NCBI GenBank assembly: GCA_002009975.1
Contig: MTLP01000031.1
Span: forward strand, 1-64,000
DNA: 64,000 nucleotides
DNA from: Thermococcus sp. JdFR-02
GTDB taxonomy: Archaea; Methanobacteriota_B; Thermococci; Thermococcales; Thermococcaceae
Direction: 5' to 3'
In this document: positions 5,129-12,960 of the stretch, in pieces
Layout: the number at the start of each line of letters is the position of its first letter
Position numbering within the stretch: the stretch's first letter is position 1
The notes under the pieces: generated by a model
The model's database searches: none
Seen by the model: only the letters and a program-made list of their open reading frames with translations
What the model was told of the DNA's origin: nothing
Position numbers and translations under genes: made by a program

Positions 5129-6079
5129 ATGAATCCCATTCTTAACATTGCAATGAAGGAGGTTTATATTCAACTGAAGACTAAGAGATTTTACATCATA
5201 ATCGGACTCTTTACTCTGCTTTCTCTTGGTTTTGTCTACTTAATAAAGAGCGTTGTTATGGGAAATCCAGAAACTATGAGATTTTATGAAGAACTTTATA
5301 AAGGTGCTTCACCTTTCCAGATGATATTCACATCCTCCTTCTCTGGTGCATTGAGTAATTTACTTCCATTTTTGGGTGGTTTACTTGGTTTTGACTTAAT
5401 AAACAGGGAAATTGAAAGAGGAACAATCAAAATAACCCTAAGCAAGCCTATATATAGAGATCAGTTTATAACTGGGAAGTTTTTGGGTTCAACCTTTACA
5501 ATTCTTGTCGGACTCGGAATATTCTACACCTTAACGATTGCATTTTCTCTTCTTTTAGGGATCCCCATAAGCGGAAAAGACCTAACAATGCTCCTTGCAA
5601 CATTCCCATTTTCTCTACTTTATACGCTTGTATTTTTAGCCCTCGGAACATTGTTCTCTATTATCGTGAAGAAGCCATCTACTGCTCTAATTGAACTAGT
5701 ACTTTCCATATTCTTCCTGCAGTTTATCTATCCGGTAATAGTTAGCATTGTTACAATGTTCTTAATGCGTGAACAAATTTTCCAAAACATGGCAACAAAC
5801 AATCAAGCAGTGATGCCAAATTTTGAAGAATATTACAAAATGGTAATGAGGTTAACATACATAGTTCCCTCAACTCACTATGGTGCAATAATGGGATCAA
5901 TCTTTGGTCAAAAAGTAGGAATGAGTGGTATTCAATTCTTTGGAGGGAGCTTATTCGAGGAGCGCTCACTTTTAGAGAGCTTAAGCTTAGTTTGGCAGAA
6001 TATTGTAACTTTAATAGTTATGCTGCTCCTGCCTTTCGCAATAGCCTATGCAAAGTTCATGAGAATGGATGTAAAGTGA
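5129..6079 (+). CDS. ABC-2 (NosY-like) transporter permease
   Basis: This 316-residue protein has the ABC-2/NosY topology: TM1 after a short amphipathic start (NIAMKEVYIQLKTKRF), an extracytoplasmic loop, TM2-TM5, a second loop and TM6 near the C-terminus. The cytoplasmic segment NREIERGTIKITLSKPIYRD with QFITGKFLG recurs in the other NosY-like permeases of this window and probably touches the ATPase. It is closest to the permease at 7865. No ATPase is adjacent, so it probably shares the one at 8842. It is separated from that operon by the minus-strand peptide block and has its own promoter with a palindromic operator. Confidence 0.88.
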   Translation: MNPILNIAMKEVYIQLKTKRFYIIIGLFTLLSLGFVYLIKSVVMGNPETMRFYEELYKGASPFQMIFTSSFSGALSNLLPFLGGLLGFDLINREIERGTIKITLSKPIYRDQFITGKFLGSTFTILVGLGIFYTLTIAFSLLLGIPISGKDLTMLLATFPFSLLYTLVFLALGTLFSIIVKKPSTALIELVLSIFFLQFIYPVIVSIVTMFLMREQIFQNMATNNQAVMPNFEEYYKMVMRLTYIVPSTHYGAIMGSIFGQKVGMSGIQFFGGSLFEERSLLESLSLVWQNIVTLIVMLLLPFAIAYAKFMRMDVK

Positions 6080-6081
6080 TT

Positions 6082-6642
6082 CTAAACTAAGCTCTCTGCA
6101 ATTTTTACAGTTATTTTTGCTTCAATTAAAGCGGCGATGAAAATTAAAACTATTGAAATTGCTACGAGCTTGAAGAATTCCTTAGCGTCTTCTTCACTAA
6201 TGATCTCTTCCTTTTTACCCAAGGCAAATCTTAAGGCTTCGTAAGGAATCTTGAAGCCAGCTGCTCCGGCTATAATTAAAGCAGGGATTTCGAAAACACC
6301 ATGAGGAAAAATGAGTAGAAAAAACGCTTTAAGCTCTCCCGAGAGTAGAGAGTCATAAAATAGTGTTCCTAGATTTATGCCATTGAAAATCAAGTTCAGG
6401 AGTGTTAAACCGCCAAAAGTCAAGGCACCACCAAATGAGAGAAGTAGAACAACCTTAAGGTTATTCGTAAAGATGCTATTAAAAGAAGGTAAATTTGTAT
6501 TGACTTCGTATTCTAACAAGGGGGCTAAGTCTACACCATGTGGAATCTTGTAGCGTTTTGAAAGGCTTAATCCGAGAAGGAAGCCTAAGAATAAAAGAAA
6601 AACTGGAAAGGTTGCAAATTTAACGTTTATTCTATTTCCCAT
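6082..6642 (-). CDS. SpoIIM / DUF95-family integral membrane protein
   Basis: This 186-residue protein with about five TM helices carries the family core: FGGALTFGGLTLLNLIFNGINLGTL and LLIFPHGVFEIPALIIAGAAGFKI with the conserved P-H-G-x-x-E-I/L-P signature. SpoIIM (DUF95) proteins occur in sporulation, but also as transport/immunity components next to circular bacteriocin genes (AS-48C, carnocyclin cclC) and elsewhere in archaea with unknown roles. Here it is last in a minus-strand block that starts with a small cationic secreted peptide. It overlaps the preceding gene by 11 bases and ends 2 bases from the convergent permease. Confidence 0.85.
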   Translation of the reverse strand: MGNRINVKFATFPVFLLFLGFLLGLSLSKRYKIPHGVDLAPLLEYEVNTNLPSFNSIFTNNLKVVLLLSFGGALTFGGLTLLNLIFNGINLGTLFYDSLLSGELKAFFLLIFPHGVFEIPALIIAGAAGFKIPYEALRFALGKKEEIISEEDAKEFFKLVAISIVLIFIAALIEAKITVKIAESLV

Positions 6643-6976
6643 GCTGTTCCACCATTGCTTTATCTTTTCCTTGTAACTCTTTCCTTACTTCTTCAATGGT
6701 TCCAAGGAAACCAGCAAACCCTATTATCAATAGTGCGAACCCTAATGAGGATCCTATGAAACTTTCCATCGAGTAAACTAGTGGTCTTTCAATCAGTCCA
6801 ACAAGCTGCCAAAGTAAGATTATTATGCTGATAAAAACCCCTGGCACAATGCTTAGCATGATATCCTTTAGCGTTATTTTGCATTTCCCTAGAGTTACAT
6901 AGAACTTCATTTTGCTGTCCCTTAAGGTATTCTGAAGTTTTTCTATCCTAACTATTTTTATAATTTCCTTTGGCAT
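6632..6976 (-). CDS. Small membrane protein of the peptide/SpoIIM block
   Basis: About 114 residues with two TM helices (IMLSIVPGVFISIIILLWQLV and SLGFALLIIGFAGFLG), a basic N-terminal tail and a charged C-terminal tail. No family is recognised. The start is uncertain. The ATG at 6976 overlaps the upstream gene by 29 bases and has only a weak site. A later ATG at 6910 (MKFYVTLGKCKIT) follows AAGGGA and would remove the overlap. A small two-helix protein in this position could be an immunity or export partner of the peptide; that is inference from context alone. Confidence 0.65.
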   Translation of the reverse strand: MPKEIIKIVRIEKLQNTLRDSKMKFYVTLGKCKITLKDIMLSIVPGVFISIIILLWQLVGLIERPLVYSMESFIGSSLGFALLIIGFAGFLGTIEEVRKELQGKDKAMVEQHGK

Positions 6977-7352
6977 TGTTCCACTTCCCAGAGTATAAGG
7001 TAAGCAATGTAAGCACAAGACATCCGACTATTAGGGTATAGGCATCTCTCACAGAAGTCTTCATAAGGTTCAAAACCCCTGCAATGACCGCCATACTTAA
7101 GAATACACAAAGCCCAATCCAGAGTAGAAGCGTGAAATGTTTTATCTCAATCTCATCTTTCTCGGCTTTAATGCCGATGTATGCGAGTATTATAACTACA
7201 TAAGACGTAATGAAAGCTAGGGAAAGGATTGGAAATTCCACTATACTGAGGGATTTTGAGATAACAATCTCAGCAAGCAAAGCAGAGAAAATAGCTGTCA
7301 AGAATATTCTTCCTAATAACTTTTCGAGATCTTTCAGTTTTACTCTGCTCAT
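6948..7352 (-). CDS. Four-helix small membrane protein of the peptide/SpoIIM block
   Basis: 134 residues with four predicted TM helices and short loops, ending in a polar tail (SGKWNNAKGNYKNS). No known family is recognised. The in-frame GTG at 7361 lies inside the GAGGTGAG ribosome binding site, so the ATG ending at 7352 (MSRVKLKDLEKLL) is chosen. It lies about 35 bases after the peptide gene and overlaps the next gene, indicating co-transcription. Circular bacteriocin operons usually contain one or two unrelated small multi-helix proteins of this size. Confidence 0.72.
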   Translation of the reverse strand: MSRVKLKDLEKLLGRIFLTAIFSALLAEIVISKSLSIVEFPILSLAFITSYVVIILAYIGIKAEKDEIEIKHFTLLLWIGLCVFLSMAVIAGVLNLMKTSVRDAYTLIVGCLVLTLLTLYSGKWNNAKGNYKNS

Positions 7353-7385
7353 TTTACTCACCTCGTTATAAATAAAAATTAAAAA

Positions 7386-7691
7386 TCAAGCAGTATCAAT
7401 AACAGCAAGAACCAAAAATCCTTTACCTGCGAATCTACAGAACTTTGTAAATTTTGATGCTCTTCTAAATACCTTTGAAGCTGCAAGAAATCCCCCTCCC
7501 ATTGTCACATGTTTGAGAGCTGCATCAGTCCAACCGAAATATCCTTTAACAAATTCACTAAACCTACCAGTTTTATGCCATCTGTATGCTCCATATGCAA
7601 TTCCTATCTCCGCCTTTTCTTCAACTGCTCCACTCACAACCATTCCTACAGCCATCAACACTAGCCCCAACACCAAAGCCTTCCTCCACAT
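7386..7691 (-). CDS. Small cationic peptide precursor with hydrophobic leader; candidate archaeocin
   Basis: The precursor has 101 residues. It starts with a leader MWRKALVLGLVLMAVGMVVSGA, with a signal-peptidase-like SGA, or alternatively longer up to about Gly30/Gly34. The rest (about 68-79 aa) is cationic and amphipathic, with Gly-, Ala- and aromatic-rich stretches (VKGYFGWTDAALKHVT, MGGGFLAASKVFRRASKFTKF, FAGKGFLVLAVIDTA) and a single Cys85. Precursor and core sizes match AS-48-type circular bacteriocins (105 aa precursor, 70 aa product), but no sequence match can be claimed. GGAGGTG is correctly placed before the ATG at 7691; the in-frame GTG at 7700 overlaps it. It is the first gene of a block with two membrane proteins and SpoIIM. 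A non-antimicrobial exported protein is the alternative. Confidence 0.68.
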   Translation of the reverse strand: MWRKALVLGLVLMAVGMVVSGAVEEKAEIGIAYGAYRWHKTGRFSEFVKGYFGWTDAALKHVTMGGGFLAASKVFRRASKFTKFCRFAGKGFLVLAVIDTA

Positions 7692-7737
7692 TTGAAACAC
7701 CTCCTAATTTCCCACTTGTAATTTGCTGTCCGAATAC

Positions 7738-7833
7738 TATTTAAAGTTTTCTTTATATTTCATAATTACTATTGACATTTTTATGATAATTAAACGAAAA
7801 ATATAATAATGATGAATAGTAATACTTTTAAGC
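7738..7833. promoter_or_regulatory. Divergent promoter region with paired AATAGTAAT boxes
   Basis: On the plus strand AATAGTAAT (7815-7823) directly abuts the TATA-like ACTTTTAAGC (7824-7833) for the permease at 7865. On the minus strand the same 9-mer (7773-7765) lies shortly upstream of TATA-like GAAATATAAAG and CTTTAAATAG (7757-7738) for the peptide gene. Each promoter therefore has the same box in the same orientation relative to its gene, which suggests one activator drives both. Confidence 0.5.
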
Positions 7834-7864
7834 AAATAAAACATTATTTAAAAAGGTGATGGAG

Positions 7865-8836
7865 ATGAAGGCTCTGAACATTGCCCTAAAGGATTTTGAA
7901 GTCAGCATAAAAACAAAGCGCTTTCAAATAATAATTGCACTTTTTGCACTTCTATCACTGGGGATGGTTTACTACTCAAAAAGACTCGGTGTGAGCCAGG
8001 AGCTTTACAAAACACCCTTTCAAATGCTTTTTCTTTCAAGCTTTTCGAATAGCTTTAACTATATTATAACATTGCTTGCAATAATCTTAGGCAGCACATT
8101 GATAAACAGCGAAATAGAAAAAGGAACATTAAGGGTTTTAGCCTCAAAACCTCTCTACAGAGACCAAATCGTCTTTGGCAAATTTCTTGGAGGAGCGATG
8201 ATATTAACCGTTGCATTAACATTGTTCTATCTTCTAACATTAGCATCCTCATTATTGCTTGGAATACCTATTACAGTCGCAGATTTAGAAAAACTTGCCG
8301 TCACTTTCCCATTTAGTCTCTTTTATGGATTAGTCTTTCTAAATCTTGGGCTCTTAATTTCGACATTTATCAAAAAGCCAAAAAATGCTTTAATCTTAGG
8401 GGTTTTTCTTTTCATATTCTTTTCTTTCATACTTCCGATAATAGCTGGAATAATAGGGTTTGCAGTTGCTGGTTTACCTCCAATTCCAAACATTCCAGAA
8501 AATACCACTGACTTAACAGAGGAGCAGCTTCAAGAATTTTTCATTAAAGACCCAACTTATCAAGAATGGCTAACTAAATTAACACAAACATCGGAAAAAG
8601 TTCTAATGATCTCCCCGAACTACCACTATCAAGAGATCCTAAGAATACTCTTTGGAGCAAAGCCCCAAATAAGCGAAATAGTTTCTGCCTTTGTTTATAA
8701 TCAGAATGTTGTTGAAGATCGTCCACTTAAAGAATCCCTTTCTTTAATTTGGCAAAACATAACAACTTTAATAGTAATGTTTTTATTATCCTTTATCCTA
8801 ACTTACACCAAATTTATGAAGATGAGCTTGAGGTGA
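7865..8836 (+). CDS. ABC-2 (NosY-like) transporter permease
   Basis: This 323-residue permease has about six TM helices and a long loop (about 205-260) before the last helix. It shares NSEIEKGTLRVLASKPLYRD and a GKFLG block with the other permeases here and is clearly paralogous to the one at 5129. An in-frame GTG at 7856 and an ATG at 7859 precede the chosen ATG at 7865. GGTGAT at 7855-7860 fits the last, and this start matches the paralogues (MKALNIALKDFE). It is first in an operon with the ATPase (5-base gap), the NEW3 protein and a third permease. Confidence 0.88.
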   Translation: MKALNIALKDFEVSIKTKRFQIIIALFALLSLGMVYYSKRLGVSQELYKTPFQMLFLSSFSNSFNYIITLLAIILGSTLINSEIEKGTLRVLASKPLYRDQIVFGKFLGGAMILTVALTLFYLLTLASSLLLGIPITVADLEKLAVTFPFSLFYGLVFLNLGLLISTFIKKPKNALILGVFLFIFFSFILPIIAGIIGFAVAGLPPIPNIPENTTDLTEEQLQEFFIKDPTYQEWLTKLTQTSEKVLMISPNYHYQEILRILFGAKPQISEIVSAFVYNQNVVEDRPLKESLSLIWQNITTLIVMFLLSFILTYTKFMKMSLR

Positions 8837-8841
8837 GAAAT

Positions 8842-9759
<918 letters not shown>

Positions 9760-9764
9760 TGAAG

Positions 9765-11975
9765 ATGAAAAAACAAACAATTCTGCTGGTTTTAGTTCTC
9801 CTACTTTCTTTAGTCCCCTTAAGTTATGGTGAACCATGGATAGAAGTTTACACGGGAAAAGTAAAGATTGGAGAAAGCTTAATCGTTGGAGAATACAAGA
9901 TAAAGATAACCCAAGAAGAGACAACCTTAAACCCCTATGCAATAATCTACAAGGGAGATAGCATTATCGCTGTTGGAAGTTTAACATTTGGAAATCAAGT
10001 TGAAGGGGAAAATGTAAGGATAACTGCCGGAAGATCTGATGGAAGGGAAGTTTTTGTTCTCATTCAATATAAGCCAGAGCTAATTAAAGAGATAAAACCT
10101 AAAGCTGGAGAATCCTTTAACATTGATGGTTATATTGTCGAAATACTCGATGCAACCAATGAGAGCGTTTCTCTTAAAATTAAAGGAATAGAGAATGCAG
10201 CACTAACCATAAAAGAAGGATATTCTGTAAACTATGATAAATTAGCCTTTGAATACACGGATGGAAGTTTAAAAGCTTATTTAGCAAAAGTTGATATAAA
10301 AAGAGAAGAAACAAAAGATTACCAAATTTATTATCCCTTTGAGTCTTTAAAAGTAGAGGCTGGAAAAAGCGTTCAGATACCAATAACTGTAATCAATGAA
10401 GGAAATCAAGATCTAATTCTTAGCCTAAAAATCCTTTCAATGCCAAATAACTGGGAAGCAAAGATATTAGATTCTCAAACAAGCTATGAGGTAAGCAAAG
10501 TAACTGTAAGAGCTGGAAGTAGTGTGAGCTTTATTTTGTTTGTTAAAATCCCCGAGAACGCAGAAGGAATAAACAAAGTCAAGTTTGCTATTGGAGAGGA
10601 GATAGGAGAAATCACATTCAACGTGTTCAAAAAGGAAGAAATTGATGTCAGAATTCCAGTTTTAGCTATCGAAAGTGAAGCAGGACAGGTTGTTAATTTT
10701 CCAATTACCCTCATAAACTTTGGAGAAGAAAAAAGTGTTGAAGTTAAGATACTTGAGAAACCAGAAAACTGGGAAGCTTATTTTGTACTTAATGGACAAA
10801 GAGTAAAATCGTTCTCCTTACTTACTCAAGAAACGCTGACACTTGTCATTGAAACTCCAAGAAATGCCGATCTGGGGGAACACAAGATAGAGTTTTCTGT
10901 TAATGGGATTAATTATTCTGTTAGCGTTTTCATCTACAAAACTCACAAGGGTGAAAAAGCCACTTTAACGCTTAGAATTGTTGATGATGAGTCAAAACCA
11001 GTTCCAAATGCTAAAGTAACTATTGGAAATGAAGAATATATAACAGATTCTCAAGGTAGTTTAGAGCTTAAACTAAATCCAGGAGATTACATTATCGAAG
11101 TTGAAAAAGAGGGCTATGAAAAAACCAAAGAGGAGATAAGCCTCTTAGATGGTGAAGAAAAGTCATTGACAATTAGGCTAAATAGGGCAGGCTATTATTT
11201 CAAAGCTGAGATTGAAAGTGATCACTTAACAATTCAGTTTGGATCCCAACTTTCCTATGAAGTGAGGATAGTGAATTTAGGCAAACTTGAAGACGGGTAT
11301 CAGCTCGAATTAAGTGGTTTACCTTCTGATTGGGCATACATGTTCCTAAGGGATCCTCAAAGTAACATCCAAGCTCAAAGTGTTAAGCTTGGTAGTGGTG
11401 AAACTAAGGCGGTGTATCTAAGGATAATACCCTCTTACAATGCACAGCCAGGAACCTACAATGCCACGCTTATAATAACGAGCGCCTCTGGATTGAAATA
11501 CGAGAAAAAGCTAGAGGTGGAACTAATAGGTAGCTACGAAATGGATATCATGCTCCAAAATTATTACGTTCCAGTTCAGGCGGGCAAAGAAATCTCAATT
11601 CCAGTGACACTTCGCAACCTTGGGAGTGCTCCTATAACTAACATAAACTTTGAGGTAAGTGCCCCAGAAGGATGGGAAGTTGAAGTTGTCCCTTCAAGAA
11701 TAGCAAAGCTTGAGCCAAGTTATTCTAGAGAAGGGAAGATGGTGGTGATTGGAAGTGGAGGAGAAAGAGTAACCCTTAACATAAAAGTCCCTGAAACCAC
11801 CCCCGCTGGAGAATACAAAGTCACAATAAGAGCAAAAGGTGATCAAGCAGAGAGAGAAACAGAGCTTAGGGTAAGGGTTAGACAAAGCTCAAGTTCTGCT
11901 TATCTTGGGATTTTAATTCTAATCCTTGCATTTGGAGGACTAATATTCATGATGAGGCGCATTGGGAGGCGTTGA
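9765..11975 (+). CDS. Large cell-surface protein with NEW3 domains and a PEGA-like domain
   Basis: About 736 residues: an N-terminal signal peptide (MKKQTILLVLVLLLSLVPLS), a beta-rich N-terminal region, repeated Ig-like NEW3 domains (e.g. about 190-285, 290-385, 480-580, 595-690), a carboxypeptidase-regulatory/PEGA-like insert (ATLTLRIVDDESKPVPNAKV...), and a C-terminal TM helix with a basic tail (MMRRIGRR). It is thus anchored in the membrane and exposed outside. Proteins of this kind are regularly paired with NosF/NosY-type ABC genes in archaea. They may act as an extracellular adaptor or substrate receptor. The ATG at 9765 gives the best signal peptide and spacing from GGGAG; GTG 9756 and ATG 9759 are alternatives. 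Confidence 0.88.
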   Translation: MKKQTILLVLVLLLSLVPLSYGEPWIEVYTGKVKIGESLIVGEYKIKITQEETTLNPYAIIYKGDSIIAVGSLTFGNQVEGENVRITAGRSDGREVFVLIQYKPELIKEIKPKAGESFNIDGYIVEILDATNESVSLKIKGIENAALTIKEGYSVNYDKLAFEYTDGSLKAYLAKVDIKREETKDYQIYYPFESLKVEAGKSVQIPITVINEGNQDLILSLKILSMPNNWEAKILDSQTSYEVSKVTVRAGSSVSFILFVKIPENAEGINKVKFAIGEEIGEITFNVFKKEEIDVRIPVLAIESEAGQVVNFPITLINFGEEKSVEVKILEKPENWEAYFVLNGQRVKSFSLLTQETLTLVIETPRNADLGEHKIEFSVNGINYSVSVFIYKTHKGEKATLTLRIVDDESKPVPNAKVTIGNEEYITDSQGSLELKLNPGDYIIEVEKEGYEKTKEEISLLDGEEKSLTIRLNRAGYYFKAEIESDHLTIQFGSQLSYEVRIVNLGKLEDGYQLELSGLPSDWAYMFLRDPQSNIQAQSVKLGSGETKAVYLRIIPSYNAQPGTYNATLIITSASGLKYEKKLEVELIGSYEMDIMLQNYYVPVQAGKEISIPVTLRNLGSAPITNINFEVSAPEGWEVEVVPSRIAKLEPSYSREGKMVVIGSGGERVTLNIKVPETTPAGEYKVTIRAKGDQAERETELRVRVRQSSSSAYLGILILILAFGGLIFMMRRIGRR

Positions 11976-11976
11976 G

Positions 11977-12960
11977 ATGAAGGAGCTAAACATAGCAATG
12001 AAAGAGTTTTACATAGCAGTGAGGAGCAAGAGATTCATTGGTCTTTTGCTTTTTTACATTATCTTGTTAGTTTTGATGAACTATGCTCAAAAAGATGAGA
12101 TAATAAACTTAGCTGGTCAAATAAGAGTTACACGTTTCGGTGCACTCGGAGGAGAAGGTACTGTTGTGTTTACTGCAGTTTCATTGTCAATATTCTCAAA
12201 TTTAATGAGTTTGTCAGTTTTTGGTGCTCTAATTGGAATAACCCTTGGTGCAGACGCTATAAATAGGGAAATTGAAGAAGGAACGGTAAAAGTTTTAATG
12301 AGCCATCCCATTTATAGGGATCAGGTGATTAATGGGAAGTTTTTAGGAAACGGTTTAGCTCTTTTGCTTATGATTATAATCGGATATACAATAACAATGT
12401 CATTCCTGCTTTTAATTGGAGTTCCATTGGATCAAGAATCTGTGATTAGGGCATTCTTGGCATCTTTTTACACGCTCATATATATGCTGACCTTTTTAAG
12501 TCTTGGAATAATGATCTCATCAATTATAAAGAAACCCGAAACTTCCATGCTTCTAGCAATAATACTCGCGATAATGCTCACAATAGTGTATCCAGTTATT
12601 TCTACAGTTATCTCTAATAAAATAGCAGGTGATGAGCCTTACTGCCCTCCAAAAATTGAAAGGATAGAGACACCTACAGGAATTCAAGAAGTTAGGATGA
12701 TGGACTATGAATGCCCAGCGTATGTAGAATGGAAAAATAAGAGAGAAATCTGGCAAAAAAGACTAAATCTTCTCACACCAACTTCTCATTATTCTCAACT
12801 CATAGCAAGTGCTTTTGCCGGAGATGAACTTGCACAGGATTATCTGCCAATAAGTGAAGCCATTCCTTTAGCATTTAACAACTTGGCGATACTATTAGTT
12901 CAGCTCTTACTTCCATTTAGCATAGCCTACATGAGATTTATGACAAGTGACTTAACTTGA
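11977..12960 (+). CDS. ABC-2 (NosY-like) transporter permease
   Basis: A 327-residue ABC-2 permease with about six TM helices and an extracytoplasmic loop before the last helix containing CPPKIERIE...YECPAY (a Cys pair). The coupling segment INREIEEGTVKVLMSHPIYR with DQVINGKFLG matches the cassette-B permease at 33728 more closely than its neighbours at 5129 and 7865. The ATG follows GGAGG and starts 1 base after the NEW3 gene's stop. Last gene of the operon. Confidence 0.88.
   Translation: MKELNIAMKEFYIAVRSKRFIGLLLFYIILLVLMNYAQKDEIINLAGQIRVTRFGALGGEGTVVFTAVSLSIFSNLMSLSVFGALIGITLGADAINREIEEGTVKVLMSHPIYRDQVINGKFLGNGLALLLMIIIGYTITMSFLLLIGVPLDQESVIRAFLASFYTLIYMLTFLSLGIMISSIIKKPETSMLLAIILAIMLTIVYPVISTVISNKIAGDEPYCPPKIERIETPTGIQEVRMMDYECPAYVEWKNKREIWQKRLNLLTPTSHYSQLIASAFAGDELAQDYLPISEAIPLAFNNLAILLVQLLLPFSIAYMRFMTSDLT

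Follow-up and report, generated by a model that had tools for sequence, protein, structure and literature searches.

Circular bacteriocins have a hydrophobic mature core of about 58-70 aa with a saposin-like helical fold, and their decisive feature is the head-to-tail peptide bond. The pneumococcal blp locus encodes variable bacteriocins together with matched small membrane immunity proteins, and orphan immunity genes are retained there. To our knowledge, peptide warfare is hardly known in hyperthermophilic archaea.

SpoIIM, a DUF95 membrane protein, has been called class-defining for circular bacteriocins (PMC13289728). Its loss in the leucocyclicin Q system leaves the mature peptide inside the cell (PMC7132975), and the role of SpoIIM/DUF95 in bacteriocin maturation has been called unsettled (PMC6131525). 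Published screens for circular bacteriocins also require a gene for an ATP-binding protein (PMC8534725). It has been known since 2014-2015 that dark-matter islands of Pyrococci, Archaeoglobi and Methanococcales pair archaeal DUF95 proteins (arCOG01996) with small membrane proteins of high variability (PMC4158269, PMC5898192). These gene sets were taken for a possible membrane-associated defence system (PMC4158269), while the linkage of archaeal DUF95 with small diverged membrane proteins and YIP1, Thermococci included, led to a proposal of membrane remodelling (PMC5898192). The arCOG01996 cassettes probably overlap with the Thermococcaceae loci described here. The text of those two studies describes no leader-peptide family, core-partner matching or immunity-only arrays, and reads the genes as unspecified defence or remodelling. 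We likewise found no mention of the leader-peptide family, the matched partners or the immunity-only arrays in the accessible literature.

A four-gene cassette in Thermococcus sp. JdFR-02

The window analysed here is the first 64,000 nucleotides of contig MTLP01000031.1 from Thermococcus sp. JdFR-02. The original prediction described a minus-strand block of four overlapping or closely spaced genes, and all four are present within 6082-7691 as open reading frames, SpoIIM being recognised by PF01944. The cassette and its surroundings are organised as follows.

7386-7691, minus strand: precursor peptide, 101 aa, with an ATG start and a GGAGG ribosome-binding site
7626-7691, minus strand: peptide leader, residues 1-22, signal-peptide-like, with residues conserved in 25 aligned peptides
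7386-7625, minus strand: variable peptide core of the RWHKTG subfamily, 79 aa followed by the stop, net charge +7
6948-7352, minus strand: 4-TM protein, 134 aa, with four hydrophobic segments
6632-6976, minus strand: 2-TM protein, 114 aa, candidate immunity protein for the window's core type, judged by the distribution of its homologues
6082-6642, minus strand: cassette-type SpoIIM/DUF95 membrane protein, 186 aa (PF01944, E 1.1e-29, Pfam)
7698-7861, no strand assigned: shared divergent regulatory region with a ribosome-binding site, a BRE/TATA-like element and a candidate dyad, from an alignment of the upstream regions of all copies
about 7734-7750, serving the minus strand: BRE/TATA-like element AAAACTTTAAATAGTAT, from the upstream alignment
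7815-7823 and 7765-7773: computed candidate 9-bp perfect dyad, ATTACTATT / AATAGTAAT
7862-8836, plus strand: divergent ABC-2 permease of the cassette-linked type (clade support 100/97)
5129-6079 and 8842-12960: resident permease-ATPase-NEW3/Ig-permease operon, kept beside moaC in several genera

With stops counted, the 4-TM and 2-TM genes overlap by 29 nt and the 2-TM and SpoIIM genes by 11 nt, and relatives of the 2-TM protein favour a start at 6911 (92 aa) over the 114-aa version. Across 94 Thermococcaceae genomes, homologues of the 2-TM protein were found only beside RWHKTG cores (G075, G077), in a remnant in G078 and as one orphan at the G077 moaC site. For the 4-TM protein, no strong relative was found in the same 94 genomes and none was clear in other cassettes; it is possibly a second immunity gene. 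The 101-aa peptide is no chance reading frame, because leader-bearing homologues occur in 17 genomes, the promoter region is conserved across copies and dN/dS lies well below 1 in the cores of related members. Alignment of the copies shows that an archaeal promoter-like element is kept upstream of peptide-first cassettes, and in some cassettes the start of a second peptide coincides with the stop codon of the SpoIIM gene before it.

A peptide family with a constant leader and a hypervariable core

Among 94 Thermococcaceae genomes, the peptide has a family of ~35 copies, spread over 17 of them. Besides the window's copy, the genome analysed here holds three more: a pair on contig C7 and a single one on C15. 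The second of the C7 peptides (L006 7726-8082) is apparently split over two frames, through either a broken gene or an assembly error.

The family has in common the leader consensus MW[RK]KAL.LGLVL..G.VVGG, which ends in VVGG or a similar sequence. M1, W2, K4, L6 and L12 are invariant in all 25 aligned full peptides, and G9, L10, V11, G16 and G21 are nearly so. The cores of these peptides, in contrast, have almost no residues in common from one core type to another. The RWHKTG subfamily comprises the window peptide and peptides from G000 (C7), G075, G077 and G080, and other cores are unrelated. Among related members, dN/dS in the cores is mostly ~0.07-0.25, one near-identical pair being uninformative, and the cores are under purifying selection within core types. 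If the precursor is cut after residue 22, the core has a median length of 73 aa (range 51-98) and a hydropathy of -0.27 to 1.16. The cationic core with one Cys that had been described earlier is accurate for the window copy (+7) but does not extend to the family, where charge runs from -3 to +9 and the majority of peptides are Cys-free.

The window peptide matches no Pfam or NCBIfam entry. Comparison of 25 family peptides with Pfam and NCBIfam gave no convincing match and no circular-bacteriocin profile among the matches, so that membership in the AS-48/circularin families fails at the level of sequence. A profile of the family matched no PDB chain, and PHROGs and PADLOC returned nothing convincing for the peptide. 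In 115 genomes of the phylum we found no further peptide outside the family, the weak matches being signal peptides of long proteins, and viral contigs and plasmids yielded no relative. Single-sequence structure models, made with no alignment, are helical at low confidence (pLDDT 61 and 67), and a Foldseek comparison of these models with the PDB returned no match and is uninformative.

Cassette architecture and a separate SpoIIM clade

The usual gene order, seen at 21 loci, is peptide, small membrane protein and SpoIIM on one strand, and in G085 this unit is repeated up to five times in tandem. A same-strand SpoIIM/DUF95 gene adjoins nearly every peptide. Orthologues lacking a SpoIIM neighbour, which would have spoken against the original prediction, were not seen at intact loci. 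Most cassettes have no dedicated ATPase, peptidase or modification enzyme. Many cassette copies are broken, as in fast-turnover conflict loci.

All 74 near-complete genomes carry SpoIIM, usually one copy. Extra copies lie at peptide loci, in remnants or at contig ends, the exception being one within a much longer open reading frame in G020. In a tree of SpoIIM, 26 cassette copies and 19 sampled housekeeping copies form two clades (100/100). The widely conserved SpoIIM, present in nearly all genomes, is a different gene and the likely housekeeping copy; the possibility that the window SpoIIM is this housekeeping protein was rejected, as it falls in the separate cassette clade. Within the cassette SpoIIM, the 3' part is far more conserved than the first 60 residues.

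Other genes were noticed as well. AAA_14/DUF4143 ATPase genes (PADLOC candidate PDC-S01), each a possible defence gene or passenger, lie directly downstream of genus g5 cassettes at the following positions. Separately, a ribonucleotide reductase reading frame at L007 11574-13982 contains a stretch identified as intein-like on visual inspection alone.

L036 4744-6033: AAA_14/DUF4143 gene
L040 12311-13600: AAA_14/DUF4143 gene
L048 10457-11746: AAA_14/DUF4143 gene
L050 11850-13139: AAA_14/DUF4143 gene
L051 13934-15223: AAA_14/DUF4143 gene
L052 10363-11652: AAA_14/DUF4143 gene

Partners follow the core type and also occur alone

Among 31 cassettes, 15 of the 17 pairs with similar cores (E < 1e-12) had similar partners, as against 11 of 448 other pairs, some cassette pairs coming from closely related genomes and so not being independent. 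For this association, label permutation at a looser cut gave p ~0.0002. Both non-matching pairs involve RWHKTG cores, whose two partner types may be distant relatives of each other. In one core type (L007, L037 and L050), the partner repeats 31-33 aa of the core at 62-69% identity. That a partner carries part of its own core may tentatively point to protection by direct pairing. In the following small membrane partners, it is the hydrophilic segment of the cognate core that is repeated.

L007 7540-7740: partner with core segment
L037 7653-7871: partner with core segment
L050 11010-11207: partner with core segment

Partner-type genes are also encoded without a peptide of their own. Five g3 loci (L042, L044, L046, L047 and L049) hold ~22 such genes, and G074 has one orphan partner at its moaC site. 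At the G077 moaC site (L141 2894-6892), at least nine orphan partner-type genes stand between moaC and the ABC operon, with a transposase among them and neither peptide nor SpoIIM; most resemble the partner of another core type. One gene of this array, at 6713-6892, begins MGRKTLVLGLVLITLG, a leader-like N-terminus, as though a peptide leader and an immunity gene had been fused. Orphan arrays fit best with resistance to peptides made by others, and the covariation together with the orphans suggests that the partner acts as an immunity protein. A variable core, a matched partner and orphan partners together give the pattern of a polymorphic toxin plus immunity: a constant delivery part with a variable effector part, a covarying neighbour, and orphan immunity-type genes.

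Most of the adjoining ABC genes are resident

The original prediction noted ABC permeases and an ATPase flanking the block and likened the set to circular bacteriocin clusters with their ABC transporter. They do adjoin it, but the permease, ATPase, Ig/NEW3 protein and permease also adjoin moaC in genomes that have no cassette. Because the same set stands at moaC without a cassette, most transporter genes in the window are resident. The window cassette and the divergent permease lie between the permease at 5129-6079, which has 66% identity to the permease of an empty site, and the ATPase. This moaC-linked operon is weakly related to gliding-type ABC transporters, and beside most cassettes there is no homologue of the window ATPase.

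Of the predicted transporter, only the divergent permease at 7862-8836 goes with the cassette. It groups (100/97) with cassette-adjoining permeases of seven other genomes; in three of these, all g3 genomes, the permease stands alone and apart from the ABC operon. The clade also takes in two permeases of cassette-less moaC sites, one of them with an orphan partner.

A proposed bacteriocin-like system for conflict between related archaea

We propose, with a probability of about 0.7 and judging function from sequence comparison, that the cassettes form a polymorphic system resembling bacteriocins and used in conflict among related archaea. Comparative evidence strongly supports the idea of a bacteriocin-like precursor accompanied by DUF95 and small membrane proteins: the leader is fixed and the core variable, the partner matches the core, there are orphan arrays, and the SpoIIM clade is restricted to these loci. 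The ABC ATPase and outer permeases as cassette parts, a family-wide cationic core and AS-48/circularin membership are not supported. The precursor, with its constant hydrophobic leader, would be expressed from its own promoter and taken to the membrane by the leader, where the cassette SpoIIM may join in export, maturation or both. The freed core, predicted to be mostly helical, often glycine-rich and hydrophobic, and ~50-100 aa long, could then harm the membranes of competing Thermococcaceae that have no matching immunity protein, while the small membrane protein encoded directly downstream would shield the producer. Other strains would hoard immunity genes but not produce the peptide. A variable middle lies between the constant leader and the constant SpoIIM 3' part, an arrangement that would let recombination swap core-immunity pairs. 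We infer secretion, killing, immunity, the SpoIIM role and recombination alike.

The cassettes are best read as working like SpoIIM-dependent bacteriocins. As in gassericin A, plantaricyclin A, AS-48 and leucocyclicin Q, there is a leader-bearing precursor with a hydrophobic helical core (here predicted), a SpoIIM gene directly adjoining it, and a small protein of immunity type. In the gassericin A locus the genes run precursor-SpoIIM-ATPase-permease. Most cassettes have no ATP-binding gene, the window ATPase belonging to the resident operon; they differ further in having no peptide sequence match to circular bacteriocins and in joining a constant leader to a hypervariable core. SpoIIM (PF01944) is present in the cluster, but membership in circular bacteriocins is unsupported, because two further defining features, an ATP-binding gene beside most cassettes and a profile match, were looked for and are missing. 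Scores of the gassericin A and plantaricyclin A SpoIIMs are low against either SpoIIM group of Thermococcaceae, and these proteins are too distant to place. A more specific form of the proposal, which we regard as tentative and rather doubtful, is an archaeal circular-bacteriocin system that makes do with precursor, immunity protein and SpoIIM and lacks an ATPase of its own, in which SpoIIM and general cell enzymes would carry out maturation and export and cores would be exchanged between the constant leader and the SpoIIM end. Blp-type arrays resemble the cassettes in their variable peptide, matched membrane partner and retained orphans, but have double-glycine leaders and a dedicated peptidase-transporter, of which the Thermococcaceae cassettes have none.

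Against the bacteriocin reading, no peptide matches a known bacteriocin profile or solved structure in Pfam, NCBIfam or the PDB, a dedicated ATPase, peptidase or modification enzyme is missing from most cassettes, and an intracellular toxin-antitoxin pair or a polymorphic signal-receptor pair would show the same pattern. In a membrane toxin-antitoxin or abortive-infection cassette, the peptide would stay in its own cell, the partner would neutralise it and SpoIIM would sense or anchor. A polymorphic toxin with a cognate partner, orphan partners and mobility suit antitoxin biology too, as do the AAA_14/DUF4143 genes (PDC-S01) after several g5 cassettes. We nevertheless hold this to be unlikely: the strict conservation of the signal-peptide-like leader speaks for export, loci for bacteriocin export are known to contain SpoIIM, and the cassette genes have no PADLOC match.

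Still less probable is a role in kin recognition or quorum sensing, with a polymorphic peptide secreted as a signal and a matched receptor in the membrane. The variable peptide with a signal-like leader, its matched membrane protein and the divergent promoter region with a candidate dyad would all suit such a role, yet the partners are tiny membrane proteins with no recognisable signalling domain, and hoarding of partners without peptide or output genes fits resistance better. We give the lowest probability, a very small one, to a complex that remodels membranes or forms vesicles, the role suggested earlier for archaeal DUF95 clusters, although that work ties archaeal DUF95 to small diverged membrane proteins and YIP1 in Thermococci as well (PMC5898192). 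Occurrence is patchy (17/94 genomes), partners covary with cores, some arrays hold immunity-type genes alone and decay is frequent, all of which is unlike a housekeeping machine, and the likely housekeeping SpoIIM is a separate gene in nearly all genomes.

Under the bacteriocin-like proposal, the family supplies defined peptide-immunity pairs in many natural variants, along with resistance arrays already in place, which makes it testable in genetically tractable Thermococcus or Pyrococcus. The cassettes would also be a small setting for the question of how SpoIIM/DUF95 acts in bacteriocin maturation, and peptides stable near 90 C would be of practical interest.

A candidate locus in a methanogen

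In plasmids, a gassericin A query gave a match and a lactocyclicin Q query gave none. Plasmid pMETHO01 of Methanomethylovorans hollandica (NC_019972.1, L127) encodes a SpoIIM that falls in the cassette clade (119.5 vs 62.3 bits; 97/97). At this locus, two peptides annotated as hypothetical are followed by a small TM protein and the cassette-clade SpoIIM, with YIP1 and ABC genes alongside.

L127 3589-3789: hydrophobic peptide, 66 aa
L127 4187-4387: hydrophobic peptide, 66 aa, near-identical to the first

These peptides differ from the Thermococcaceae family, being another peptide without the Thermococcaceae leader, and we regard the locus as a candidate methanogen bacteriocin locus. Given this plasmid, the link between the SpoIIM clade and small hydrophobic peptides may reach beyond Thermococcaceae.
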